A model generated the notes under the pieces. The model was not told the origin of the DNA, did not search any database, and saw only the letters and a program-made list of their open reading frames with translations. The translations under genes and the position numbers were made by a program. Shown here piece by piece: positions 12,170 to 47,187 of a DNA stretch of 48,255 bases (within the stretch, counting starts at the first letter, position 1; each line of letters begins with the position of its first letter). This DNA comes from Fibrobacterota bacterium (lineage in GTDB: Bacteria > Fibrobacterota > Chitinivibrionia > Chitinivibrionales > FEN-1185): contig PLWQ01000033.1 in assembly GCA_003165595.1 (NCBI GenBank), positions 91,501 to 139,755 of the forward strand, given 5' to 3'.

Positions 12170-13138
12170 ATGCAACCCTATACCAAGACATTCAAGACCG
12201 GCGCACACCTGTTTCACGAGGACGATCATTCCCGCGAGCTGTATATAATCCAGTCGGGCCGGGTCCGCGTGTTTCGCAGGGTGGGCCAACGGGACATCGA
12301 TTTGGCGGTGCTTACGCAGGGCTCGGTCCTCGGCGAAATGGCGCTCATCGACGGAAAGCCCCGCAGCGCATCGGCAATCGCCTGCGAGGACACGGCGGTC
12401 ATCATCATAGACGCGGACTCGTTCGCCAAACGCCTCCGTGGCGTGCCTTCGTGGTATATGTCTATGGTACGGGCCACGAGCGAAAAGATCCGCAAAGTGA
12501 ATTCGAGACTCGAGGCGATCCAGACAAGCACACACAGCCTTCACGTGGTGCTTGCGTTGCAATACTACTTTCTCCGGCACGGAGCCCCGGCCGAGGGGAA
12601 GCTCGAAAAATCGCTGGAGCTGGGGTCCACGGTGGCTCAATTTATCCAGCTGCTTACCGTGAACCATCAGTGCGTAATGTCGATTCTCGACATGCTGCAG
12701 CGCAATGGCATGATTGATGTGAAGAACAACCGCATCACGCTTGCGGATGAGGCGAAGCTGAACGGATTCTGCGAGTATCTGCGCCAAATGTTTCGCAAAT
12801 CGTTCGACAAAATGAGCGTTGTGACGCCGCGGTCGCAGAAGCTTATCGTCGCCCTCGGGCCCGCGGCGTCGTCGCGGCAGGCCGCGTCGGCAAAGGGCTG
12901 GGAAATTGCCGAAGCCGACATGGTTGCGGCGCTTTCCAAATGCGATGCTGCCGGCGCCGCGCTCGAAGCGGTAAACGAACTGAGGGACCTTGGTATCGTA
13001 ACGGTGGCGAGGACCGGCGGAAAGGCCGCTGCCGACAAGGACAATTCGCTGTCTGGATATCAATTCTTTGTTGATCCGGCGGCGTTCGAAAAGTATTTCC
13101 TGTATTGTTCCTACAAAGACATGGTGACGATCCTATGA
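12170..13138 (+). CDS. Cyclic nucleotide-binding domain regulator
   Basis: A 322-residue protein of the CRP/FNR superfamily by its N-terminal cNMP domain (about 1-115). The phosphate-binding cassette reads GSVLGEMALIDGKPRSA, with the glutamate (E56) and arginine (R65) that contact cyclic nucleotide in CRP, so ligand binding is plausible. The next region (about 120-215) is helical with a DNA-binding-like stretch (FIQLLTVNHQCVMSILDMLQRNGMIDVKN), followed by about 100 residues with a second winged-helix-like pattern (DMVAALSKCDAAGAALEAVNELRDLGIV). This is longer than CRP (about 210). Control of the adjoining surface genes is inferred from position. It overlaps the next gene by 4 bases (ATGA). 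Confidence 0.8.
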   Translation: MQPYTKTFKTGAHLFHEDDHSRELYIIQSGRVRVFRRVGQRDIDLAVLTQGSVLGEMALIDGKPRSASAIACEDTAVIIIDADSFAKRLRGVPSWYMSMVRATSEKIRKVNSRLEAIQTSTHSLHVVLALQYYFLRHGAPAEGKLEKSLELGSTVAQFIQLLTVNHQCVMSILDMLQRNGMIDVKNNRITLADEAKLNGFCEYLRQMFRKSFDKMSVVTPRSQKLIVALGPAASSRQAASAKGWEIAEADMVAALSKCDAAGAALEAVNELRDLGIVTVARTGGKAAADKDNSLSGYQFFVDPAAFEKYFLYCSYKDMVTIL

Positions 13139-14247
13139 ACAGCAATCGATCGAAGTCCCGTTTCGTGTGCTGCCTTGCGGCGACGGCCATCGTTGCCGCG
13201 GCAGCGGTGCAGCCGGTTGCGGCGGAGGAAACCGTGGGCGGATTCATCAGGAAAGACACGCGCTGGACGGAAGAGAACGGTCCGTATTACGTCACGCAGG
13301 ATGTCTTCGTGGTGCGGGGCGTTAGGCTCTCCATCATGCCGGGTACAAGAATTGTCGTCGGCAAACTCACGGTGCGCCAGCGCGACATTCCCCAGAACGA
13401 CGCCATCGATTCCTCGACCGTGGCAATTACCGTCGAAGGATCACTGGATTGCGTCGGCAGGCCCGACAAGCGGATAACGTTCCTGCCGCAGGACGGCGGC
13501 GGCCGCGCCAGCTCCTGGTACGGCATCGTGCTCAAGAAAGCCGCCGACCGGTCGACCCAGATCGGCTATACCAACATCAGCGGAGCGTACAAGGCGGTGA
13601 GCGTTTACGATTGCAGTCCTGTCATCCATCACTGCCAGGTTGATTTCAACAACGAGGGAATCGTATGCGGCACCCGCGGCGATGCCGAGGTCAGCAACTG
13701 CGTTGTCGCGCACAATTTCGCCGCAGGCGTCAAAGTCGCATCCGCCAACCCAGTTTTTGTCAACAACATCATCGCATTCAACAGGAACAACGGTCTCTGG
13801 TGCGACGGCGTGTCGACCATGACGTTCGAGTATAACTGCGTGTTTGGCAACGCCGACGGCAACCTGCTCGACTGCGACCCCGAACTCGGCGTGCTTCGCA
13901 AGAAGAACGACGGGAAGGACTCCGTCGACTACAGGAACAACCTTTTCAGGAATCCCGTCTTTGCTGGATCGGAATTCGATTCGGTTGCGGTGGAGCGCGA
14001 CCTTTCCCTTGGCACCGACCGGTCGAGGGTCCGCGACACCTCGCTTGCAAAAGTTTTGCACAACAGGCTTTCGGACTCGCTTGCCCTCAAGAAACGCGCC
14101 GCTCAATACCCTCCTTATGCCCTGTCCCGCTATTCTCCCTGTCTGCATGCCGGAACAACCTCTGCGGATATCCGCAACGAAGACGGCTCTCGCAGCGACA
14201 TGGGAATGTACGGCGGGACCAAGTTTTCCTCTGCGAGAAAGAAATAA
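13135..14247 (+). CDS. Exported parallel beta-helix protein
   Basis: A 370-residue protein with a signal peptide (ATAIVAAAAVQPVAAEE). The rest shows right-handed beta-helix turns: IMPGTRIVVGKLTV, ITVEGSLDCVGRPDKRITF, VYDCSPVIHHCQVDFNNEG, VSNCVVAHNFAAG, PVFVNNIIAFNRNNG, and a C-terminal SPCLHAGTTSADIRNEDGS, a cap often seen in NosD/PL-like proteins. It shares the layout of the protein at 10547 (a PGT turn, a SWYGIV or CWYGIV strand, then N-rich turns), so the two look like paralogues. Start is the ATG inside the ATGA overlap with the regulator gene, which implies translational coupling. Polysaccharide binding or a structural envelope role is likely but unproven. Confidence 0.78.
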   Translation: MNSNRSKSRFVCCLAATAIVAAAAVQPVAAEETVGGFIRKDTRWTEENGPYYVTQDVFVVRGVRLSIMPGTRIVVGKLTVRQRDIPQNDAIDSSTVAITVEGSLDCVGRPDKRITFLPQDGGGRASSWYGIVLKKAADRSTQIGYTNISGAYKAVSVYDCSPVIHHCQVDFNNEGIVCGTRGDAEVSNCVVAHNFAAGVKVASANPVFVNNIIAFNRNNGLWCDGVSTMTFEYNCVFGNADGNLLDCDPELGVLRKKNDGKDSVDYRNNLFRNPVFAGSEFDSVAVERDLSLGTDRSRVRDTSLAKVLHNRLSDSLALKKRAAQYPPYALSRYSPCLHAGTTSADIRNEDGSRSDMGMYGGTKFSSARKK

Positions 14248-29981: not shown

Positions 29982-30530
29982 TTACTGCGCCTTCTTAAGG
30001 AAGCAGGTGACGAGAATGTGGACATCGAGGCCGTTTTTCTGGGCGGTAACCGCGAGCCGCTCCACACGCAGCGCCTGCGGCGTTCGTTCCAGCGAGGCGA
30101 CAAAACGGGCCAGCGAATGATACGAAGTGGTCATTTCCAGAACAACCGGATACTCTGCACGGTGCGCGGTCTCCTGCTGGGGAAGCATCTTTACAAACCG
30201 GATATCTGCCTCTTTTGCGCGCGAAATGAGGAGCTGCAAAAGGTCCGAAAGGCCGCCAGCCTCATAGTCGGCGGGCGCCGGCGCCGCACGGCCGGCAACG
30301 TCGGCAAGCAACCGCTGCCTGTCGAGAAGGCGTACCCGTATCTCCTGGTACCGGTTCCTGTCCGAAAGCAGTGATTTGAAGTAGTCAAGCTGAACGGCAG
30401 TCGCGCTAAGGACAGCCGCCTGGGGCACAAGCGCGAACCGCGCGAGCGCCAGAAACAGGAGGATCGTGCACGAAAAAACCGTGACGGGTATTATTTCACC
30501 GGCGAATCGCCGGAAAGCCGAAGCTTGCAT
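29982..30530 (-). CDS. PilO/GspM-like pilus assembly protein
   Basis: A 182-residue bitopic protein: one helix (about 12-33, IIPVTVFSCTILLFLALARF), a coiled-coil stretch (QLDYFKSLLSDRNRYQEIRVRL), and a ferredoxin-like C-terminal domain (YPVVLEMTTSYHSLARFVASLE, then LDVHILVTCF). The H-S-L-A-R-F-V-A-S-L-E pattern matches PilO, which pairs with PilN in the inner-membrane platform. It overlaps the end of the upstream PilN-like gene by 40 bases, unusually long, and precedes the GspC/PilP-like gene by 4. Confidence 0.75.
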   Translation of the reverse strand: MQASAFRRFAGEIIPVTVFSCTILLFLALARFALVPQAAVLSATAVQLDYFKSLLSDRNRYQEIRVRLLDRQRLLADVAGRAAPAPADYEAGGLSDLLQLLISRAKEADIRFVKMLPQQETAHRAEYPVVLEMTTSYHSLARFVASLERTPQALRVERLAVTAQKNGLDVHILVTCFLKKAQ

Positions 30531-31747
30531 GTTATCCTGAAGGAGACAATGTTGTGAACCTCATTTCGTTCGAGAGACGACAATGAAATGTCCGAATACA
30601 ATCCGCTGCTTGCCAGCGACGAGATAAACCCCGTTACCAGGGATTCGTTGCGAGCCCAGCCGGAGAACGCCGCGCCCACCTTGCCCGAGGCTGCGGAACC
30701 GTCCGTTCCTATCATGTCAAGGTACAGTCCGTCTGGCCTCAGGGTGCCCAGGGTCGAAAGCATCTTCGTCCATCGCGTCGACGCGGCGGCAACATCGTGA
30801 GCCAGCAGAATGGCGCGAGCCAGCGAATCGTTACTTGCGGTGAGCACCTTGATTTCCGGTGTTTTTGCAAGAATGACCCGGTATTGCTCCACGTACGATG
30901 CGAGACGCTTGCCGGCGACCCAAGCCGCGGCCGGCAGCGCTGCCGCCAGCAACAGGCCGCACACCGCAACGGCGGCGGAAAAGGCGTAGACGCCCGTGCG
31001 CACGCGCCGCAGGCCCGCACCCGGCGCCGCGCCCGCGAGACGGGGCACATTGCCGCAGGAACCGGCGAGCGCCGCGCCTGCGGCCTGCAGCGATTCGACA
31101 TCCGATGCGTCAATACCTGCTTTGGAAAGGCTAGGTCGGTGCACGGTGTAGCCCGAGTCCTGCGGCAGGTCGGTTGCGGCGTCAAAGGCATACAGGTGCG
31201 AAGGCCAGGGTATTGACCGCTGCGAGATTGACCAGAACCGGGAAAGCCTGCCCAGGTGCGACTCGAGGGCATGCGGAGAAGAAGGCGCCATGGAGAAAAC
31301 CGCAAGGAGCGAACCGTCGGCAACGATTCCTATTTTGTAAAATGGTCCGGCGTTGTGGACCGAAACGAATGACCGGGCCGTAGGGTCGAGCGCCAGCGGA
31401 AGCGTGCACAAAAATGCGTCGTCCGGAACCACGCCGACAAGGTTGCCGAAAAGGCGGTCCGAGAATGCCGCCAGGGCCGTATCGCTTGTCCGCGGCGTCC
31501 AACCGGCCGGCGCTTGCTGCGGGGAAGCGCCGGCTGCCTGGGAAGAAGACGGTGAACGATGCGTCTTCCAACGCGACGGCGCCGCGGCGACAACGCCGCG
31601 GTGGAGCAGCAGCAAGTTTCCGGCAACGCTGTCTGCATTCCAGCGGTCGGTGCGTTTTATGCGCCAGCCCTGCGCGGATTTTTCAAGGCTGGCGAGGAAA
31701 AAGGTCCCGTCGCCGCTGGAGAGTATGCCGTGTACCTGTTGAGACAT
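30491..31747 (-). CDS. GspL-type protein: PilM-like and PilN-like regions fused
   Basis: A 418-residue protein. Residues 100-240 keep traces of the actin-like PilM/GspL cytoplasmic fold (VSVHNAGPFYKIGIVADGSLLAV, and AAGAALAGSCGNVPRLAG as the last glycine-rich loop). A transmembrane helix covers about 252-279. After it comes a coiled coil and a PilN-like periplasmic domain (WTKMLSTLGTLRPDGLYLDMI, GWARNESLVTGFISSLASSGL). In type IV pili PilM and PilN are separate; a fusion resembles GspL of type II secretion, though the N-terminal part is degenerate and includes a Ser/Pro-rich insert (61-90). It sits between the secretin and PilO-like genes. Confidence 0.72.
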   Translation of the reverse strand: MSQQVHGILSSGDGTFFLASLEKSAQGWRIKRTDRWNADSVAGNLLLLHRGVVAAAPSRWKTHRSPSSSQAAGASPQQAPAGWTPRTSDTALAAFSDRLFGNLVGVVPDDAFLCTLPLALDPTARSFVSVHNAGPFYKIGIVADGSLLAVFSMAPSSPHALESHLGRLSRFWSISQRSIPWPSHLYAFDAATDLPQDSGYTVHRPSLSKAGIDASDVESLQAAGAALAGSCGNVPRLAGAAPGAGLRRVRTGVYAFSAAVAVCGLLLAAALPAAAWVAGKRLASYVEQYRVILAKTPEIKVLTASNDSLARAILLAHDVAAASTRWTKMLSTLGTLRPDGLYLDMIGTDGSAASGKVGAAFSGWARNESLVTGFISSLASSGLYSDISLSSLERNEVHNIVSFRITCKLRLSGDSPVK

Positions 31748-31769
31748 GGTCGACGTTTCCGTTCTTACG

Positions 31770-33929
31770 TTATTGCTGAGCCTTAACGCTGTCCTTCTGA
31801 GCCGGAGATGGCGTCGCGGGTGCCGGAAGTTCGGATGCCTTTGGATGAGCCGATTTCTCGCCTGTAACGGTTGCTGAAGCAGCGCTCTGGGATGATGAAG
31901 AATCTGGTGTTTTCGTAGGCGCTTTCCCGTTGATCCATTCTTCGGTTTTTCTATCCATGAATTTCTGATTGGTCTTGTCGAGGTTCTTCAATTCTTCGCC
32001 AAGGTTCACGTAACTTTCTTTTGTAAGAATATGCGGAGTAATGTATACCACGAGATTCGATTTTGATCGCGTCTTTCCCGTGTAGCTGAACAGTTTGCCA
32101 ATAAAGGGAATATCACCAAGAAACGGAATTTTTTGTTTGAATTGGCTTTCCTGGTTCTGCACCAGACCGCCCAGTATTATGGTTTCTCCGTCTTTAAGCC
32201 GTACGGTGGTTGATATGGAACGAACGGAGAGGTTCGGATACCCGTCGGCGTTGGTATTAACTTCGTTGGAAACCTCCGGAGATATTTCCGCCGTTATCTG
32301 GCCGCCCATGGAAATCCACGGTGTTATTTCGAGCTTGATGCCGAAATCGATGGGTTGGAACCGGATGGTATAATCGGTGCCGGTAACCGTTCCCGTCGTC
32401 ACTTTGTAGTAATTTGTCTGCTTGACGGTGATGCTCGCTTTGTTTCCGTTGAGCGTAACAATTGACGGCTGCGCCAAAACTTTGGCCTTGTCTTCGGTTT
32501 CGAGAAACTGAAGAAAAAGGAAAAAATCCTCCGGAATTTTTGAGACAAGGGTGTTGGTTGGGCCCAGACCGAGCGAAGACGTCAAGAATTCGCGAATGGC
32601 TTTTCCGCTTGTGCCGATGTCGGTCATATCGCTTGCGCCCTGACGCGCAAATGCCGGCGTGGGGTGGAAAAAGTACGAACTGTCAATGAGATTCGGGCGT
32701 TGCCCCGCGGATGCGCCGAAGTGGGAGTCAAGATTCTGCGTATATTCCACGATCACCGCATTGATGCTCACCTGCGGCGTCGGGACGTCGATGGTGTTGA
32801 TGAACTCCCGCACGCTCACGATGTCTTCCGAGGTCCCGGACACCAGAAGCGCATTCTGCTCCTTGATCACCTTGACGTTGTTCGGGGGGATGTCTTTGGG
32901 CAGTATCTGCATCACGCCGTCGGCCTTGATGCAGTTGAGGCGGATGAGTTCCGATTTAGAAAGCGCCTGGCCCGCGGGCGTCGCCGCGTTCCGGTCGCCG
33001 ATCAGGATGATGGAGTCCTTCTGGACAAAGGTGAACATGGTGCCGCCCAGCAGCAGGGCGAGCGCCTGAGTGAGCGGCACGTTCCGGAGCTTGGCATTGA
33101 TGTCGCCGCTAACGGTGCCGTAGGTGATGATCTGCATCTCGCTCTGCTCCGAGATTGCCTTGATAACGTCCTGGAGGTTGCCGTTTGTCACGTCGAGTGA
33201 AATCTTGCCGTTGGAATAATCGACGTTGAAAGTCGACGCTCCGCTCCGACCGCCGCTCCCGTGCTGAAATCCCGGATACGGAGACGGCGTGCCCCCTCCT
33301 TGCGATGCGGGAGTCCCGTCGCCGGTGAACACCTGATAGATGTTCCTTCGTTTAACAAGCTTGAGTCCGCTGCCTTCGAGCAGCGCGCGCAGTCCGTCGT
33401 CGAGCTCTACCTGATACAGCTTCCCGGATATCTTGCCTTCAACCTTGCTGTCGGGGACTATGGAAATCGCGGTTTTTGCGCTTATGTCCTTGAGGAATTC
33501 CTTGACGTCCATGTTTTGGACGTCCACGGTAAGCCTGCCTCTGGTAAAGCTTATCGCCGACCGCTGCTCCTCGGGTGGCTTCCGGATACGGTATACGTTG
33601 CCTTCCTTGCCGACTTCCAGCCCGATCGACTTGGCGAGCGTGCGTAGGCCCTCGATGACGGGAACGTCCGACAGATGCACCGTCACCTTGCCGGCTACAT
33701 CCTTGTCGAGCACGATGTTCAGGTTGTATCCCTTGGAAATGGTGCGAACCACGTCCTGGATATCCGCGTCCTTTACGTCAAGGGGGGACATGACCTGCAG
33801 CTCGGGATCCAAGGCTTTTTGTTCGGCCGGTTTTGCCTCAGCAGCGGCCTTTTGCCCGGTCGCGGGAGCGGCAATAACCGCGGCGCACCACGCCGCGACG
33901 AAAGCGAGAATACGCAGATACACCATCAT
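31770..33929 (-). CDS. Secretin (PilQ/GspD type) with three N0/STN-like domains
   Basis: Outer-membrane secretin, 719 residues, forming the channel through which the pilus or substrate leaves. A signal peptide (1-25) is followed by three related short domains of about 70 residues (about 46-117, 130-203 and 233-313), each with a V-x-D-V/A-D-I-x-D-V-V/I pattern (VKDADIQDVVRTIS, VQNMDVKEFLKDIS, VTNGNLQDVIKAIS). An N1-type domain (KVIKEQNALLVSGTSEDI) and the secretin core (LAQPSIVTLNGNKASITV, LKDGETIILGGLVQNQE, FLGDIPFIGKLF) come next. A Ser/Thr/Pro-rich tail of about 70 residues ends the protein. It overlaps the ATPase gene by 4 bases (ATGA). Confidence 0.93.
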   Translation of the reverse strand: MMVYLRILAFVAAWCAAVIAAPATGQKAAAEAKPAEQKALDPELQVMSPLDVKDADIQDVVRTISKGYNLNIVLDKDVAGKVTVHLSDVPVIEGLRTLAKSIGLEVGKEGNVYRIRKPPEEQRSAISFTRGRLTVDVQNMDVKEFLKDISAKTAISIVPDSKVEGKISGKLYQVELDDGLRALLEGSGLKLVKRRNIYQVFTGDGTPASQGGGTPSPYPGFQHGSGGRSGASTFNVDYSNGKISLDVTNGNLQDVIKAISEQSEMQIITYGTVSGDINAKLRNVPLTQALALLLGGTMFTFVQKDSIILIGDRNAATPAGQALSKSELIRLNCIKADGVMQILPKDIPPNNVKVIKEQNALLVSGTSEDIVSVREFINTIDVPTPQVSINAVIVEYTQNLDSHFGASAGQRPNLIDSSYFFHPTPAFARQGASDMTDIGTSGKAIREFLTSSLGLGPTNTLVSKIPEDFFLFLQFLETEDKAKVLAQPSIVTLNGNKASITVKQTNYYKVTTGTVTGTDYTIRFQPIDFGIKLEITPWISMGGQITAEISPEVSNEVNTNADGYPNLSVRSISTTVRLKDGETIILGGLVQNQESQFKQKIPFLGDIPFIGKLFSYTGKTRSKSNLVVYITPHILTKESYVNLGEELKNLDKTNQKFMDRKTEEWINGKAPTKTPDSSSSQSAASATVTGEKSAHPKASELPAPATPSPAQKDSVKAQQ

Positions 33930-35686
33930 GGCTGTTCCTTCCGGTTCTCCAAAAAGGATTGCTTGAGCCCCACGGTATCTTCCACCATCACCACGCGAAG
34001 AAGCTCGTCGGGAGAGGTGATGCCCTGTTCGATCTTTTCGAGTCCATTTTGGATCATGGATTTCATGCCGGCGGCCCGGAAAAATGAGCGGAGCGCCGCG
34101 TCCGATGCGTTTTCGGAAATCATGTTGCGGACCGTCTCATTTACCGATGCAAGTTCGAAAATGCCGGTGCGGCCCTTGTACCCCACGGCGTGGCAGACGT
34201 CGCATCCCACGGGCGCATAGTGGGGCGGCAGGGGAATGCCCGGAAGCATCACCTTCCACCGCTCGGCGGTTTCGCCCCGAGTTTCGGCGCGCTGCTTGCA
34301 GTGGGGACACAGCACGCGAACCAGGCGCTGCGCCAGAATTCCCAGCAGCGACGACGAAATGAGAAACCCCGGGATTCCCAGGTCGCGCAACCGTGTTATC
34401 GCGGCAAGGGAGTCGTTGGTGTGCAGGGTCGACAGCACGAGATGGCCGGTCTGCGCCGCCTGCACCGCGATCTCGGCGGTCTCCCCGTCGCGGATCTCGC
34501 CGATGAGGATGACATCCGGGTCCTGGCGAAGGATAGAGCGAAGCGTGGCGGCAAAGGTGACGCCGGCTTTCTCGTTGATCTGCACCTGGTTCACACCGTT
34601 TATCTTGTATTCGATGGGATTTTCTATGGTGGTTATGTTGATCGCCTTGCCGCGGATCCGGTTGAGGCATGCGAACAGTGTGGAAGACTTTCCCGACCCG
34701 GTTGGGCCGGTTACGAAAACCATCCCCTGCGGCTTTTCGATAAGTTCGGCGAGCTCGGCGTATTCCTTGTGCGGGATGCCGATGTTCGCCAGGTCCAGCA
34801 GGCCCATATCGTGCTTGAGAATGCGTATCACGGTTTTTTCGCCGTGGTGGGTAGGTAAAGTTGACACACGGAAATCGAACACCTCCCCATTGTGGTCGTA
34901 CCGGATACGGCCGTCCTGCGGCACGCGCTTTTCTGCAATGTCGAGGTCCGCCATGATCTTGATGCGCGAGGTGAGCGGCACGTACATGTTCCGTGCCACA
35001 TCCATGTGCCGGGTGAGCATGCCGTCGATCCGGTAGCGAACCACCGCGCCGTGTTCGGTGGGCTCGATGTGAATGTCCGAAGCGTTGAGCTTGATAGCCT
35101 CGTTGAAAATCAGTGACGCCATTTTCACCACCGGTTCGCTTTCGGTTCGCTTCTTGATTTCCTCAACAGACAGGGTATCGTCGCCCTGGGATTGCTTTTC
35201 GTACTCGCGCGATATCTTACCCATGGACTCTTTGAGGAGCGAAGAGCTTTCGAAAAGCTTGCGCCTGGCCGCATCCATCTTCGAAGGAGGGGTGAGGGTG
35301 GCTTCCACCACAAGTCCGGTGGCCGCTTCCACCCGGAGGATGGCGTCGATGTCGAGAGGGTCGCTCACGGCCGCCTTGAGCACCGTGCCGTCGTGACTGA
35401 GCGGCAGGCATTGTGCATCCTTGAAAGCGTCAAACGAAACATCGTTCATGCTGTCGCGGCTGACGCAGTCTTCTATGTCAACAAGAAAGGTCATGCCGAA
35501 CTGCCCCGCGAGCGTCTTGTACACGCCCTCTTCCGGCGCGCCGAACTTCTGTATCAGGCAATCGCCGATTCTCTGCCGCGATTCCGCCGAAGCCTGCTGG
35601 TCCCGCTGCCACGCAAGGGCCTTGTCAAGGGTTTCGCCGCTCACGATTCCGTTGCGGACCAGCAGGGTGCCGATTCGTTCTATCAT
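33926..35686 (-). CDS. Type II secretion/type IV pilus assembly ATPase (GspE/PilB)
   Basis: Hexameric ATPase that powers pilus or pseudopilus extension, 586 residues. The N-terminal domain (about 1-150) is a GspE/MshE N-domain. Walker A is GPTGSGKS (327-334), the Asp box is near IENPIEY, and Walker B is in VILIGEIRDGETAEIA. The zinc-binding tetracysteine (C460, C463, C495, C498; CPHC and CDVC) is present as in most PilB/GspE. It is the first gene of the operon on the minus strand. The frame continues to 35809, but the ATG at 35686 starts the conserved MIERIGTLLVRNGIVS. Confidence 0.95.
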   Translation of the reverse strand: MIERIGTLLVRNGIVSGETLDKALAWQRDQQASAESRQRIGDCLIQKFGAPEEGVYKTLAGQFGMTFLVDIEDCVSRDSMNDVSFDAFKDAQCLPLSHDGTVLKAAVSDPLDIDAILRVEAATGLVVEATLTPPSKMDAARRKLFESSSLLKESMGKISREYEKQSQGDDTLSVEEIKKRTESEPVVKMASLIFNEAIKLNASDIHIEPTEHGAVVRYRIDGMLTRHMDVARNMYVPLTSRIKIMADLDIAEKRVPQDGRIRYDHNGEVFDFRVSTLPTHHGEKTVIRILKHDMGLLDLANIGIPHKEYAELAELIEKPQGMVFVTGPTGSGKSSTLFACLNRIRGKAINITTIENPIEYKINGVNQVQINEKAGVTFAATLRSILRQDPDVILIGEIRDGETAEIAVQAAQTGHLVLSTLHTNDSLAAITRLRDLGIPGFLISSSLLGILAQRLVRVLCPHCKQRAETRGETAERWKVMLPGIPLPPHYAPVGCDVCHAVGYKGRTGIFELASVNETVRNMISENASDAALRSFFRAAGMKSMIQNGLEKIEQGITSPDELLRVVMVEDTVGLKQSFLENRKEQP

Positions 35687-35849
35687 ATGGATTTCAGGTG
35701 GAAGTATTTTAACGGATAAGCATATTTTAACCCAATCAAATATAATCGATTTGGTGCCGGCGAAAAAGTTCGGCAGGAATCTCTTCGGGGTTTCGGGCGC
35801 GGGCCGCAACCTACGGCCGCTGCTGTTTACACTTTAAGGAGGCGAAAGG

Positions 35850-36422: not shown

Positions 36423-36573
36423 TTGTTTTAGGAGTTAATGTGTTCGCGGGGAGAAACGGCAAGTTCTTACTCCCTGTGACGAGATAAAGAAAGGAGGAAT
36501 GCCGAAAAATCGTCTGAGTCTTTCAGGTTAACATGGATTGTTAATCTATTTATCCACCAAACAGGGAGGTATC

Positions 36574-37425
36574 ATGCGTATCAACAGTAATATTCCTTCG
36601 CTTATTGCACAAGGCGCACTCTACAAAACCAACCAGTCTCTTTCCACCTCTTTGGAACGGCTTTCCACGGGTCTCCGCATCAACCATGCCAGCGACGATG
36701 CCGCGGGCCTTGGCGTTTCGGAAAACCTCATGACCCAGGTCAATGGTGTGACTCAGGCGCAGAGGAACGCTCAGGACGGAATCGCCGCCCTTAACATCGC
36801 GGACGGCGCGGCCAACGAAATAACCTCGGTGCTGCAGCGCATGCGCGAACTTGCGGTGCAGACATCCAACGATACACTCACCAGCACGGAACGCGGGTAC
36901 AGCCAGCAGGAATATTCCGCGCTTCAGAGTGAAATAGACCGTATCGCCGCTTCCGCCAATTACAACAAACAGTCCCTGCTTACCTCAACGGCGGCATCGC
37001 GGTTCGGCAACATGGCCACCGGTTCGGCGCTGTGGATCGACGCCAACCACACCTACGGCACCGACAGCATCACCATATCGATTTCGACGCTTACGTCGAA
37101 CCTGCTGGGAGTGAATTCTGCGGCTACGAACCTGACGACACAGGCGGGCTCGGCCACCGCGATCAGCATGATCGACACGGCGATCGACAGCGTGAACAGC
37201 ATGCGGGCCAATGTCGGGGCGTATGTCAACAGGCTCGAGCACGCGGTAAACAACCTCTCCGTGAGCGAGACGAACCAGACCGCGGCCGAATCGACCATCA
37301 GGGACGCGGATTTTGCTTCGGAGACAACGAGTTATACCAAGAGCCAGATTCTGACGCAATCGGCGACGGCGATGCTGGCGCAGGCAAATTCGCTTCCGTC
37401 AACAGTACTGACGCTGTTGAAATAA
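36574..37425 (+). CDS. fliC: Flagellin
   Basis: Structural protein of the flagellar filament, 283 residues. The N-terminal D0/D1 region (MRINSNIPSLIAQGALYKTN, then SLERLSTGLRINHASDDAAGLGVSE) and the C-terminal D1/D0 region (SAMTLTQ-like helices, ESTIRDADFASE, ending SLPSTVLTLLK) are well conserved. Only about 55 residues lie between them, so the surface-exposed D2/D3 domains are nearly absent, as in short flagellins. The start at 36574 follows GGGAGG. A sigma-28 promoter upstream and a strong terminator downstream make it a single-gene unit. A possible anti-sigma factor gene is at 22602. Confidence 0.95.
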   Translation: MRINSNIPSLIAQGALYKTNQSLSTSLERLSTGLRINHASDDAAGLGVSENLMTQVNGVTQAQRNAQDGIAALNIADGAANEITSVLQRMRELAVQTSNDTLTSTERGYSQQEYSALQSEIDRIAASANYNKQSLLTSTAASRFGNMATGSALWIDANHTYGTDSITISISTLTSNLLGVNSAATNLTTQAGSATAISMIDTAIDSVNSMRANVGAYVNRLEHAVNNLSVSETNQTAAESTIRDADFASETTSYTKSQILTQSATAMLAQANSLPSTVLTLLK

Positions 37426-42320: not shown

Positions 42321-44735
42321 ATGTCCAAACAAGAGACTTCTGTTCAGGTTTTTGAGTCCAAATTCAGCCAAAACCCCGAGTCGCTGGTGTTTTCCCGCCT
42401 TGCCGACGGTTATCGCAAGAACGGTGAAATCCAACAGGCCATTTCGGTGTGCTCGCAAGGACTCGCGATTCACCCCGATTACGTGACAGGCAGGGTTATT
42501 CTCGGGCGCTGCTACCTGGAGCAGGAAAAGCTCAAGGAAGCGATTGAGGAGTTCGTGAAGGTGGTGGGCCTTGACAGGCGAAATCAGGTTGCCCTCAAAA
42601 TGATAGCCGACATTTACGCCCGCCAGGGACTCAAGGAGAAGGCCGGAGACCTCTATGCTACACTGCTGGACATGGACCCCGACAACCAATCGCTTGTCAA
42701 GCTCTCCAGCACGTTCCGCGGCACGGGCCAGGCCAATGTGCTCGCGACCCTCGGGATCTCGACGGAGACGCCGCAAACGGCGGCGGTGAGGGCGGACGCC
42801 CCCGCCGCATCCAACGAGGTGATCGTCGACGTCGACAAGACGATACAAATGGAACTGGGCCCGCGGAGGCCGGCGGCGCCGGCCGGCGAAGAGGGCGAGC
42901 TCGGAGAAATGCTTGTCAAAACGCAACAATTCGATGCAAGGGAACTCGGCGCCGCCGCGGGTGCCTCCGAAGAGCGCGCCGGAGCCGTCGGCGTGGTCAC
43001 CGGCGACGACGTGAGTTCGCGCATGACAGCGATGTTCGAAGGCGAGCAAGCCGCTTCCGGGGCAGCCGAACCCGAGGTGCTCGATCACGTAGATATCGGC
43101 AGTGACAAGGCCCTGGAATCCGACGAGGAAATCGGCGCGGCGACGGTCAAAGGCGCGGGAACCGACATTGTATCGGGAAGCGATATCAGCTCGCGCATTG
43201 AGCAACTGTTCGGCTCCGAAGAGCCGCCCGCGGCTGCGACGGATTCCAACATCACCCGCGTTGCCGACAGTCGGGGATCCGTGCAAGCGCCTCCCACGCG
43301 GGAAATTTCCGGCAGCGAATTGCGGCCGGTGGAAAACTCGGCCATTTCCGGGGAAGATATCGCGTCACGTCTCAATGAGATGTTCGAAGATGCACCTGCG
43401 ATGGAACCTCTGGCGGCCGACCTTCCGCCGGAAGAACCTGCAGCCGTCGGCGCCTCCGCGGACGAAGCTGGTCCCTTTCTCGACATCGCGGCGGACATTG
43501 GGGCCAAGAGCATGTCGGGCGCAAACGAGGAAATCGTCGTCGAGGATGCCCGGGCAGCCGTGCCGCCCGAAAAAGAAGGTGTGATTTCGGGCGACGATGT
43601 CGCGCTGCGTCTCGATACCATCTTTGAAGAAGGGGAAAAGACCGAGCTGCCCGGAGCCGACAGCCTATCGGAAGCCGTTGCCACCCAGTCGTCGGAGGCA
43701 ACAGACGTGGCGACCGCGGAAGAAGGTACCGCGCGCGCCGGGGACGTACAGCACCAGGAAGAAGACACAAAACCGCCATTTGACATTGGGGAAAGCGGTA
43801 TCGTTATCGGTGACGACGAGTCTTCCTCCGAAACGTTGGTGACGGCCGGGACCGGCGTATCTGCTTCTGCGGATGCAACGCCTCCGGAACCGGCCATCGA
43901 CGATGCTGTTGAGCCTGAAGAAGACAATGCACCGGGAATGTCCGGCGACGACGTGGTGGGCAGAATGAACGAATTGTTCAGCGACAGCCTGATCAAGGAC
44001 GACGCGCTCAAGTCGGCCGAATCGATTCCCGAGGGCGACAAAGAGGATCAGGTGGTGAATCAGGGCTTCTACACCATGTCCGGCGAAAACGCGGAGACAT
44101 CTGAATCGGAAGATATTCTGCTGTCCGAGCTTGACAAGATAGATGTTGCCGCTCCGGAGTCCGACACGCTCGATCTGGCCCGGGAGCCCGAAGAAAAGAC
44201 CGTGCTCATGGACGAAGATGCGGGCGAAGAGGCTATGCCGGCAGGAAGCAAAGACCCGTTCCTGAGCGAGCCGTCCCGGCCGTCCGCCCCGATGGACAAG
44301 GCCGAATCCGACGACACGGTGCGCGCCGACCGACTTCTGCCGGTGGATGCGGAAGAAGAACCGGTCGACGATGCGGACCCCGAGCGGGCGGAAGCGTATT
44401 CCATCCCGGATCACGTGCTTACACCCACCCTGGCCGACATTTACTACCAGCAGGGACAGCCCCGGCTCGCGCTGCAGATCTACCGCCGGCTCCTCGAAGC
44501 CGACCCGGACAACGAACGCATGGCGAACCGTATCCGGGAAATTGAGACGAGTATCGCGTCGCAGGAAACCGAAGAAACCGTTGCCATGGATGCCGCGCCA
44601 AGAACAAATGGTGCCGCATCCCCCAGGGAAAAGCCTCAGGGCGAATACAAGAAGCGGGAAGCATCCGGGATAAAACCGCTCTCGGGGGTGCGCATCAAGA
44701 AGAAGTTCAAGAACAGGATTCGAAAAACGCGGTAG
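42321..44735 (+). CDS. Cytoplasmic TPR protein with five SGDD-type motifs
   Basis: An 804-residue protein with no signal peptide. The N-terminal 145 residues are TPR-like helices (SRLADGYRKNGEIQQAISVCSQG). Residues about 150-690 are an acidic, low-complexity, probably disordered region containing five copies of a 14-residue motif (227-240, 285-298, 343-356, 423-436, 541-554), consensus S-G-x-D-[IV]-x-x-R-[LM]-x-x-[MLI]-F-x. A second TPR-like pair follows (about 702-745: TLADIYYQQGQPRLALQIYR), and a basic tail, RIKKKFKNRIRKTR, ends the protein. I know of no family with this architecture. A scaffold binding one partner several times is the obvious inference. The ATG at 42321 gives the MSKQETSVQ start; the frame extends further without a better start. 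Confidence 0.75.
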   Translation: MSKQETSVQVFESKFSQNPESLVFSRLADGYRKNGEIQQAISVCSQGLAIHPDYVTGRVILGRCYLEQEKLKEAIEEFVKVVGLDRRNQVALKMIADIYARQGLKEKAGDLYATLLDMDPDNQSLVKLSSTFRGTGQANVLATLGISTETPQTAAVRADAPAASNEVIVDVDKTIQMELGPRRPAAPAGEEGELGEMLVKTQQFDARELGAAAGASEERAGAVGVVTGDDVSSRMTAMFEGEQAASGAAEPEVLDHVDIGSDKALESDEEIGAATVKGAGTDIVSGSDISSRIEQLFGSEEPPAAATDSNITRVADSRGSVQAPPTREISGSELRPVENSAISGEDIASRLNEMFEDAPAMEPLAADLPPEEPAAVGASADEAGPFLDIAADIGAKSMSGANEEIVVEDARAAVPPEKEGVISGDDVALRLDTIFEEGEKTELPGADSLSEAVATQSSEATDVATAEEGTARAGDVQHQEEDTKPPFDIGESGIVIGDDESSSETLVTAGTGVSASADATPPEPAIDDAVEPEEDNAPGMSGDDVVGRMNELFSDSLIKDDALKSAESIPEGDKEDQVVNQGFYTMSGENAETSESEDILLSELDKIDVAAPESDTLDLAREPEEKTVLMDEDAGEEAMPAGSKDPFLSEPSRPSAPMDKAESDDTVRADRLLPVDAEEEPVDDADPERAEAYSIPDHVLTPTLADIYYQQGQPRLALQIYRRLLEADPDNERMANRIREIETSIASQETEETVAMDAAPRTNGAASPREKPQGEYKKREASGIKPLSGVRIKKKFKNRIRKTR
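42999..43982 (+). repeat. Five-copy protein motif within the TPR gene
   Basis: DNA encoding the five motifs: 42999-43040, 43173-43214, 43347-43388, 43587-43628 and 43941-43982. Copies 1 to 3 are regularly spaced at 174 bases (58 residues); the later ones at 240 and 354. Examples are SGEDIASRLNEMFE and SGDDVALRLDTIFE. The codons differ between copies although the residues agree, so the motif is conserved by selection, not by recent duplication. Confidence 0.8.
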
Positions 44736-45010: not shown

Positions 45011-46093
45011 ATGAGAAACAGCCGTCTTGCCGCCATACACGATCTCCTCGCGCAGGGGCCTTTTACTCACATTGTTCTCTCCGACCTTTGCGACATCGAA
45101 TACCTCACCGGGTTCCGGTCTTCCAATGTATGGTGTATCGTTTCAAAAAGCGCAAACACCCTGTGCTCCGATTTCAGATACCGCGAGGCGGCTCTCGCGT
45201 TTTGCAAAAGGCGCCGCGAATGGAAGTTCCTTGAAATCAAGGGAAACGATTTTTCGTTTCTGGGAGGGGCGCTCGGCAGGAACTGCGTCGCGGGCATACA
45301 ATCGAACGTGATCACCATCGACACGCTCGGCCGAATGAAACGTTCGTGCCCGGGCGTCAGGTTTGTGAAGCTCCCGGAAACATTCGGCCGCGTCTTTATT
45401 CCCAAGACCGAACGTGAAATCGAATCCATGCGAAACGCGGCGGCAATCGGCGACAGGGCATTTGCCGACACGGTCGGGCATGCGCGGCCGGGCATCACCG
45501 AGCGCGAGCTTGCGTCGTTTTGCGAAGACCGGTGCAGGAAATACGGCTCGGAGCGGCCGTCGTTCGACACCATCGTGCTGTTTGGCCGGAGGGCCGCGCT
45601 TCCGCACGGCGTGCCCGCGAACGTGCGGCTTGCCTCCGGCGATTGGGTGCTCTGCGATTTCGGCTGCACCGTGGATGGCCTCGCGTCCGACATGACGCGT
45701 ACCTTTGTGATAGGCAAGGCGTCGGCGAAGCAGAAACAGCTCTATGATGTGGTGCTCCGGGCCCAGGAAACCGCGCGCTGCGCCGTTGCCGCCGGAAAGC
45801 GCGCATGCGACATTGACAAATTGGCACGAGACGCAATCGAGGCGGCGGGATACGGCCCCCTGTTCGGTCATGCGACCGGGCACGGCGTGGGGCTGCGGGT
45901 CCATGAAAACCCTCGCATTGCCGGCTCAGACAAATCTATTTTACAAGAGGGTACGGTTATTACCATCGAACCGGGCATCTATCACCCCCGCTTCGGCGGC
46001 GTAAGAATCGAGGACATGGTTGTGGTGCGGGAAGGCGGGGGTGAAACCATCACTGGCGCACCGCGGGAGCTTATGCAGGCAGGACTCAAATGA
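45011..46093 (+). CDS. M24 family Xaa-Pro aminopeptidase-like protein
   Basis: A 360-residue metallopeptidase of the creatinase-aminopeptidase fold. A creatinase N-terminal domain (about 1-125: IEYLTGFRSSNVWCIV) precedes the catalytic domain, which has the dinuclear-metal ligands in the expected order: D in CDFGCTVDGLASD (two Asp), H in GHATGHGVG, E in TIEPGIYHP and E in RIEDMV. Xaa-Pro aminopeptidase (PepQ/PepP class) activity is likely; the substrate is inferred. The start at 45011 lacks a ribosome-binding site. It overlaps the following pilT by 4 bases (ATGA), an odd pairing. Confidence 0.9.
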   Translation: MRNSRLAAIHDLLAQGPFTHIVLSDLCDIEYLTGFRSSNVWCIVSKSANTLCSDFRYREAALAFCKRRREWKFLEIKGNDFSFLGGALGRNCVAGIQSNVITIDTLGRMKRSCPGVRFVKLPETFGRVFIPKTEREIESMRNAAAIGDRAFADTVGHARPGITERELASFCEDRCRKYGSERPSFDTIVLFGRRAALPHGVPANVRLASGDWVLCDFGCTVDGLASDMTRTFVIGKASAKQKQLYDVVLRAQETARCAVAAGKRACDIDKLARDAIEAAGYGPLFGHATGHGVGLRVHENPRIAGSDKSILQEGTVITIEPGIYHPRFGGVRIEDMVVVREGGGETITGAPRELMQAGLK

Positions 46094-47187
46094 CCAACAT
46101 TCACGCGCTCCTGAAAACGATGTTCGACAACAACGCTTCCGATTTGCATATGCGAGTGGGCACGTCGCCTACCTTCCGCGTCAACGGCGCGCTGTACCGG
46201 GCGCAAATGGACCCCGTGTCGTTCGAGGACATGGAAGCGGTGTGCGCCGAGATCATGCGGCCCGAGCAGAAAAAAGTATTCGACGAGACAAGCGAGCTGG
46301 ATTTTGCCATCGGTCTCAAGGGCGTGGGCCGGTTCAGAATCAATGCCTCCCGCCAGCGAGGCACGCCGTCGCTCGCCATCCGAGCCATCAAGACCCAGAT
46401 ACCCTCGTTTCCCGAACTCGGGTTGCCTAATGTGATCCTCGATATCGCCATGAAGAAGCGAGGGCTCGTCCTTGTTACCGGCACCACCGGAAGCGGCAAA
46501 TCCACGCTTCTGGCCTCCATGATCGATCATATAAACGGCAACGCGTCCGTCAACGTCGTCACCATTGAAGACCCGATAGAGTATCTTTACAAAGACAAGA
46601 AGAGCATCATTGCCCAACGGGAAGTTGGCACGGACACAAATGCTTTCGAAAACGCGCTGCGTGCGAGTTTCCGCCAAGACCCGGACGTGATCCTTATCGG
46701 TGAAATCCGCGACAAAGACACCATGGAAACCGCCATGAGCGCGGCGGACACGGGACACCTCGTGATGAGCACGCTCCACACCATGAACGCAATGGAGACC
46801 ATTTCCCGCATCCTTTCGTTCTTCCCGCCCCACGAGCATCAGCAGGTGAGGCTGGTGCTGTCAAACGTCCTTGTCGGCGTGATTTCCCTGCGGCTGCTGC
46901 CCAGGAAAGACGGCGCCGGACGGATTCCGGCCGTGGAGATCATGATCAACAACGCCGCGATTGCCGAATATATCCTCGATCAGGACAAAGCGCATCTGAT
47001 CATGCCCGCAATCTGCGAGGGATATACGCAGTACGGGTCGCAGTCGTTCGACCAGTCGCTGCTCCAACTCTTCAAGGACGACCTCATAACATTCCAGGTA
47101 GCGAAGCAGCATGCGAGCAATCCGGACGATTTCGAACTCAAGGTGCGGGGCGTGGAGGGAACAAGCGACAGGCAATGGGGCGGATAG
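46090..47187 (+). CDS. pilT: Type IV pilus retraction ATPase PilT
   Basis: Hexameric ATPase for pilus retraction and twitching, 365 residues. The PilT-type N-terminal PAS-like domain leads to GTTGSGKST (131-139, Walker A), IEDPIEYLY (Asp box), ILIGEIRDKDTMETA (Walker B) and HLVMSTLHTMNA (His box). The C-terminal segment (QSFDQSLLQLFKDD, then SNPDDFELKVRGV) resembles PilT/PilU. The tetracysteine of PilB is absent, as expected for a retraction enzyme. It is translationally coupled to the upstream peptidase gene by ATGA. The assembly ATPase is at 33926, so the two motors are encoded far apart. Confidence 0.95.
   Translation: MTNIHALLKTMFDNNASDLHMRVGTSPTFRVNGALYRAQMDPVSFEDMEAVCAEIMRPEQKKVFDETSELDFAIGLKGVGRFRINASRQRGTPSLAIRAIKTQIPSFPELGLPNVILDIAMKKRGLVLVTGTTGSGKSTLLASMIDHINGNASVNVVTIEDPIEYLYKDKKSIIAQREVGTDTNAFENALRASFRQDPDVILIGEIRDKDTMETAMSAADTGHLVMSTLHTMNAMETISRILSFFPPHEHQQVRLVLSNVLVGVISLRLLPRKDGAGRIPAVEIMINNAAIAEYILDQDKAHLIMPAICEGYTQYGSQSFDQSLLQLFKDDLITFQVAKQHASNPDDFELKVRGVEGTSDRQWGG

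Follow-up and report, generated by a model that had tools for sequence, protein, structure and literature searches.

Introduction

CsoS2 and EPYC1 repeat a short docking motif along a disordered chain and thereby cluster one partner, while the CheR pentapeptide of chemoreceptors and the C-terminal tip of SSB are short docking motifs that end flexible tails. FimV and HubP are polar hubs that recruit clients, and they combine an acidic cytoplasmic region with a C-terminal TPR unit (PMC12918733). In Myxococcus xanthus, the TPR protein SgmX (PMC7519303) recruits the pilus ATPase PilB (PMC11580455).

Here, we describe a gene located in a stretch of 48,255 nucleotides from a Fibrobacterota genome (contig PLWQ01000033.1; hereafter the window), whose product has TPRs at both ends and, in the acidic linker that joins them, five copies of a short motif that we call motif A. 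A limited literature search, which covered few subscription journals, returned no paper on this protein, its motif or the pair described below. An earlier sequence-only reading of the window, which could place the design in no described family, had proposed that the protein could be a multivalent scaffold built on linear motifs; motif conservation and AF2 models support this proposal, and we refer to the protein as the scaffold. The main new result beyond that reading is a second motif carrier, predicted to be membrane-anchored, with which the scaffold seems to form a pair.

Results

Domain architecture of the scaffold

The scaffold reading frame opens with ATG, with GGGAG about 9 nt upstream, and its product starts with an N-terminal TPR domain, continues as an acidic disordered linker with the five copies of motif A and ends in a C-terminal TPR unit followed by a basic tail (Table 1). 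Pfam finds TPRs at both ends of the protein, the C-terminal unit matching general TPR models. In the AF2 model, for which the input alignment consisted of 19 family members, the N-terminal domain has pLDDT values mostly above 90 and its Foldseek matches are TPR structures; the polar residues of its concave face (D29, R32, T56, R63, E67, N88 and K93) are near-invariant. The C-terminal unit, which the model sets at about residues 700-758, also exceeds a pLDDT of 90 across most of its length and is 77% identical within the genus, and the basic tail, in the form PLxGVRIKKK, is conserved at the end of the TPR family within the order. The linker comprises 543 residues, of which 24% are D+E and 6% K+R, and its pLDDT is mostly below 50, including around the motif copies. 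An acidic linker between two TPR blocks had already been read from the sequence, and both Pfam and AF2 bear this out. The chain starts directly with TPR helices and, as judged from the sequence and the predicted helices, has no transmembrane helix. No Pfam match to a LysM domain was obtained in the scaffold (P0001) or in P0002, and no FimV model, as would correspond to the FimV C-terminal domain, was among the NCBIfam matches up to E=1.

Table 1. Features of the scaffold locus and of the membrane-protein gene; positions refer to the window unless a contig is named.
Feature	Residues	Position	Strand	Evidence
Scaffold gene, 804 aa		42321..44735	+	ORF, Pfam TPR matches, AF2
N-terminal TPR domain	8-143	42342..42749	+	AF2, conservation, Foldseek
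Motif B, KTQQFDAREL	200-209	42918..42947	+	enriched over shuffles
Motif A copy 1, TGDDVSSRMTAMF	227	42999..43037	+	matrix, DNA pattern, profile, AF2
Motif A copy 2, SGSDISSRIEQLF	285	43173..43211	+	matrix, DNA pattern, profile, AF2
Motif A copy 3, SGEDIASRLNEMF	343	43347..43385	+	matrix, DNA pattern, profile, AF2
Motif A copy 4, SGDDVALRLDTIF	423	43587..43625	+	matrix, DNA pattern, profile, AF2
Motif A copy 5, SGDDVVGRMNELF	541	43941..43979	+	matrix, DNA pattern, profile, AF2
Motif C, GFYTMSG	582-588	44064..44084	+	enriched over shuffles
C-terminal TPR unit, IPDHVLTPTLADIYYQQGQ...	695-758	44403..44594	+	Pfam, AF2
Basic tail, PLSGVRIKKK	786-795	44676..44705	+	alignment A4
pepP (M24 peptidase)		45011..46093	+	Pfam; synteny in 21 loci
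pilT-like ATPase gene (PilT-A)		46090..47187	+	Pfam T2SSE; synteny; distribution
Membrane-protein gene, own genome		G000:C22, about 12573-13703	-	motif profile

Five motif copies in the linker

Translation of the reading frame confirmed the five copies at the residues proposed before. Each consists of a polar cap, [ST]GxD, followed by the pattern of an amphipathic helix, [IV]xxx[LIM]xx[LMIF]F. Two details of the 14-residue consensus starting with S that had been given for them need adjusting: copy 1 starts with T, and the core is better taken as 13 residues, with G or an acidic residue often coming next. Scored with a position-specific matrix that was trained on orthologues alone, with the window scaffold left out, the five copies reach 26.6-39.2 bits. 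No other part of the protein scores above -17.9, and the maximum among shuffled linkers (n=1000) is 8.9 bits. Used as a DNA pattern, motif A has six matches in the 5.39 Mb genome, namely the five scaffold copies and a sixth that is interrupted by a stop codon in frame. The reversed pattern has 0 matches in the same 5.39 Mb. Pairwise DNA identity between the scaffold copies is 49-67% over the 13 codons and the flanks are unrelated, in agreement with the previous observation that codons differ and that the surroundings are not conserved between copies. The even spacing of copies 1-3 (58 and 58 residues) was considered as a structural repeat and rejected, because a same-genus orthologue is spaced differently and the flanks are unrelated.

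AF2 places helices at residues 231-237, 288-297, 346-351, 426-435 and 544-552, that is, on the five motifs, at low confidence (pLDDT blocks of about 43-59). The models thus agree with the proposal that each copy may form an amphipathic helix. Elsewhere in the linker there is little other structure and none of it is confident. Confident docking of a motif on either of the two scaffold TPR domains was not seen in the AF2 model.

Conservation among orthologues

Sequence matches to the scaffold were found in 48 of the 61 genomes searched, own genome included, and named contigs place the group in the Fibrobacterota (Chitinispirillia, Chitinivibrionia and their kin). The motif searches were made within Fibrobacterota, and one scan of genome contigs, for close scaffold relatives, also reached outside this phylum. 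Motif A recurs in most same-order orthologues, in about 1 to 15 copies whose positions are not fixed, and in some orthologues it is multiplied as near-identical tandem units of 28, 40 or 46 residues. Within the genus, identity is 69% in the motif and 68% in the N-terminal TPR domain, whereas the rest of the linker is only 43% identical. Fibrobacter orthologues have a diverged motif in 5-9 copies, of which some come close to the canonical form (SGSDVSSALSDMFG) and others follow the pattern IDxAFxxIFGEDELPEE, and a profile of this diverged motif, run on ten Fibrobacteraceae genomes, returned one open frame in each, the TPR orthologue. In families f9 and f10, the TPR protein is present and motif A is absent; in two genomes of family f7 (G013 and G016), the readable parts of the TPR linker are without canonical copies. 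In another genome, G024, the TPR linker (L050:7083-10493) is made up mostly of near-identical acidic repeats (IVESVIETEAIVDTE...) with almost no motif A.

That the motif itself is selected, as had been suggested, agrees with its persistence across the phylum while the linker drifts. The sequence-only reading had looked to a conserved number and position of copies among orthologues; this yardstick does not apply, because linear motifs are expected to vary freely in both respects, as they do here. Indeed, free copy number, a drifting disordered linker and a kept motif are together what would be expected of a linear motif.

A second motif carrier

When relatives were searched with the DNA pattern of motif A, a second gene was matched repeatedly. 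Its counterpart in the own genome, which lies on a different contig from the scaffold gene, encodes an unannotated, single-pass protein of 376 residues with the C-terminus EEPIISGEDIENTMDSFFGLGGK. Proteins of this family begin with a transmembrane helix, to which a cytosolic helical domain of ~80 residues and then a linker of variable sequence are joined, and the motif forms the tip. AF2 predicts helices 2-62, 68-88 and 95-113 with high confidence and, at the tip, a helix at 363-370 with a mean pLDDT of 69, the best-scored stretch of the far linker; docking of the tip on the protein's own helical domain was not confident in AF2. All of the aligned full-length membrane proteins (26/26, alignment A5) terminate in motif A, and the motif residues G, D, D and F are invariant among these 26.

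Within the order, about 30 genomes encode the family; outside it, 0 of 21 do. A search of Fibrobacter did not detect it, so the pairing of scaffold and membrane protein is found only within the order. Weak matches in G024, G008 and G044 were discarded, as on reading they were not orthologue-like. The membrane protein matched no Pfam or NCBIfam family, and the attempt to assign it a known fold gave no Foldseek match below E 0.7. Its gene neighbours, named by sequence (glycogen synthase-like, rRNA methyltransferase-like, priA and others), give no functional clue. In G025, the linker of the membrane protein (L100:4452-6503) contains an extended stretch of GGQFPPPH and GRQVPPQ repeats, and the C-terminal motif is kept.

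Within the searches made here, motif A is confined to these two families. In the own genome, a motif profile matched the five scaffold sites and the membrane tip, the next match having E=0.755; since the profile was built with the own-genome motif sequences included, the lack of further own-genome matches is the informative part of this result. In the motif search of the 61 genomes, where proteins were assigned to families by contig and open frame, the matches listed (E down to 8.4e-4) all belong to the scaffold or the membrane family, and a third motif-bearing protein was found neither among these matches nor in Fibrobacter. A search for a solved structure containing the motif gave a single match, a designed protein, which we attribute to chance.

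The two carriers do not always go together, since G013 and G016 have a canonical membrane tip and no canonical copies in the readable parts of the TPR linker. In G018, the motif is apparently missing from the TPR orthologue and also from what is probably the membrane orthologue, a protein identified by its weak similarity and by priA close by; the folded domains of both are kept.

Neighbouring genes

About 20 loci share the gene order TPR-pepP-pilT, often with a gene for a FecR-domain protein as well, and in Fibrobacter the TPR gene adjoins pilT. PilT-A, the ATPase encoded beside the TPR gene, forms a paralogue group of its own, with identities of 55% or more, that is absent from families f9-f11. 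A second PilT, of about 41-45% identity, is encoded elsewhere in most genomes. In G007, the locus contains the TPR, pepP and FecR genes, and pilT is missing. The adjacency of pepP and pilT in most relatives suggests a link to type IV pili, and a scaffold role in these pili is a possibility. A pilus or flagellar link had been suggested from the sequence and is only partly supported: pilT synteny speaks for it, but the motif survives the loss of pilT-A.

Two other regions of the window can be mentioned here. Positions 30494-35833 contain secretin, PilN-like and GspE/PilB-like genes, a cluster for either type II secretion or type IV pili. A flagellin gene (36532-37422) lies close to the scaffold gene, and is also found there in several relatives.

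Two further motifs

Motif B, [EKAD]Txx[hydrophobic][DN]..., is common to both families and reads EKTLQWDRNQL in the membrane protein (L110:694-1824). It is found 31 times in TPR linkers versus 6.2 when these are shuffled, and 14 times in membrane-protein linkers versus 0.9, an enrichment that is only suggestive because the pattern was picked after the sequences were inspected. GarA and OdhI have a phosphorylated threonine motif (FHA), and by analogy the resemblance of motif B to such phosphothreonine/FHA motifs may serve as a lead. Motif C, FYTxxG, whose pattern was also picked after inspecting the sequences, has 16 matches in 11 of the 28 orthologue linkers (shuffled mean 0.5). Related forms of it are seen in f9 and f10, and perhaps in Fibrobacter.

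Discussion

Motif A lies in a disordered region, is conserved while its flanks drift and recurs in an unrelated protein, all of which are features of short linear motifs. The occurrence of the same motif in the scaffold and in the membrane protein probably reflects a common docking partner. In the explanation that we prefer, the TPR protein would be a soluble multivalent scaffold, whose disordered tether, flanked by two TPR units, displays several motif copies, and the membrane protein would be a single-copy anchor, held by its one N-terminal transmembrane helix and presenting the motif at its C-terminal tip. Both proteins would dock into one site on a third, putative cytoplasmic partner; the single-copy tip would hold this partner at the membrane, while the multi-copy scaffold would gather many partner molecules into a cluster. 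For this explanation as a whole, including the idea that motif A is a true short linear docking motif, we estimate a probability of roughly 0.55. Our preference for it comes from G018, one lineage, in which the motif appears to have been lost from both proteins and the folds have been kept; the simplest reading of this double loss is that a shared third partner was lost. The undocked motifs of the AF2 models fit an external partner, and they fit the absence of any binding equally well.

We have weighed this shared partner against several alternatives. TPR grooves commonly bind peptides, and one could imagine that the N-terminal TPR groove of the scaffold itself binds motif A, in which case the membrane tip would recruit the scaffold and the internal copies would cross-link scaffolds to each other. 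The near-invariant polar residues on the concave face would suit such a role, and in family f7 groove residues and canonical linker copies are both lost (aligned by eye). However, all five motifs are undocked in the AF2 model, and the groove residues are present in families f9 and f10, where motif A is not. Conversely, G013 and G016 have other residues in the groove, according to the same by-eye alignment, and still a canonical membrane tip. Of the alternatives, this one survives best, and we consider it unlikely. Motif C may be a ligand of this conserved groove.

A second alternative is that the scaffold copies bind to the membrane protein, through its cytosolic helical domain, and that the tip of the membrane protein competes with them in cis or in trans. 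Among near-complete genomes of the order, a motif copy was scored in the TPR protein in 16 of 20 genomes with the membrane family versus 1 of 6 without it (Fisher p=0.0097, with counts compiled by hand, with kinship ignored and with some TPR genes cut by contig ends), and the tip stands out as the best-scored stretch of the far linker in AF2. Nevertheless, a mean pLDDT of 69 does not amount to confident docking, and the distribution of the two families argues in the other direction: Fibrobacter keeps its 5-9 motif copies without a detectable membrane family, G022 keeps motif copies with no membrane family found, and G018 keeps the probable membrane orthologue although the motif has gone from both proteins. 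We therefore regard the helical domain as a doubtful receptor, less favoured than the TPR groove.

The neighbourhood raises a third alternative, that the adjacent PilT-type ATPase is the partner and that the scaffold gathers PilT hexamers. The gene order in about 20 loci and in Fibrobacter is consistent with this idea, as are families f9-f11, which are without both PilT-A and the motif. In contrast, G007, where the locus has no pilT and the best PilT is 46% identical, keeps five motifs and the membrane tip; G003 is also without PilT-A and keeps the scaffold/membrane pair; and G008 and G018 present the opposite situation, with PilT-A kept and no canonical motif. An obligate partnership with PilT-A was rejected on these grounds, since G007, which is without it, still has the motif and both proteins, and we find PilT improbable as the partner that motif A recognises.

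The last two alternatives can be dismissed more briefly. That the copies are membrane-binding amphipathic helices and not protein-docking motifs, as their amphipathic pattern and AF2 helices could suggest, is highly improbable, because the acidic motif, with the acidic residues that often come after it, has the wrong charge for binding anionic membranes, because the [ST]GxD cap is, with F, among its most conserved parts, and because a transmembrane helix already anchors the membrane protein. Just as improbable is a motif without any function of its own that persists by tandem duplication of linker DNA: some orthologues do have near-identical tandem units, but the low DNA identity and unrelated flanks disfavour this origin for the window copies, and the motif is better conserved than the linker and also ends an unrelated protein.

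The shared-partner explanation has a practical side, as motif A is a defined peptide usable as bait and both proteins should return the same partner. The function of a scaffold that is spread across the phylum Fibrobacterota, and that is unannotated, becomes directly testable in this way. Moreover, the motif ranges in copy number from one to about fifteen and seems to have disappeared jointly from two proteins, which makes it a natural case in which to study multivalency.

How does the pair compare with the systems described so far? Like the polar hubs FimV and HubP, the scaffold has a long acidic region, a C-terminal TPR unit and a poorly conserved linker (PMC12918733). In contrast to these hubs, it has neither a LysM domain nor a match to the FimV domain, nor a transmembrane helix in the chain of the TPR unit; its anchor would be a separate protein, and the candidate docking motif is explicit and repeated in the scaffold. 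The similarity to SgmX, which as a TPR protein is also connected with an ATPase of type IV pili, is a functional parallel by description alone, and the scaffold differs from it in having a disordered linker that bears motifs and connects a small N-terminal TPR domain to a C-terminal TPR unit. By description, the repeated short motif on a disordered chain is also reminiscent of CsoS2 and EPYC1; however, the scaffold has two TPR units and, in addition, a single-copy, membrane-anchored co-carrier. The membrane protein, whose flexible tail terminates in its motif, recalls the CheR pentapeptide and the SSB tip, but the sequence is different and the motif is common to a multi-copy soluble scaffold. 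Tentatively, we could speculate that Fibrobacterota possess a previously undescribed two-part scaffold for one receptor, which would form receptor clusters at the membrane in a cell-envelope process and would be functionally similar to a split FimV/HubP.
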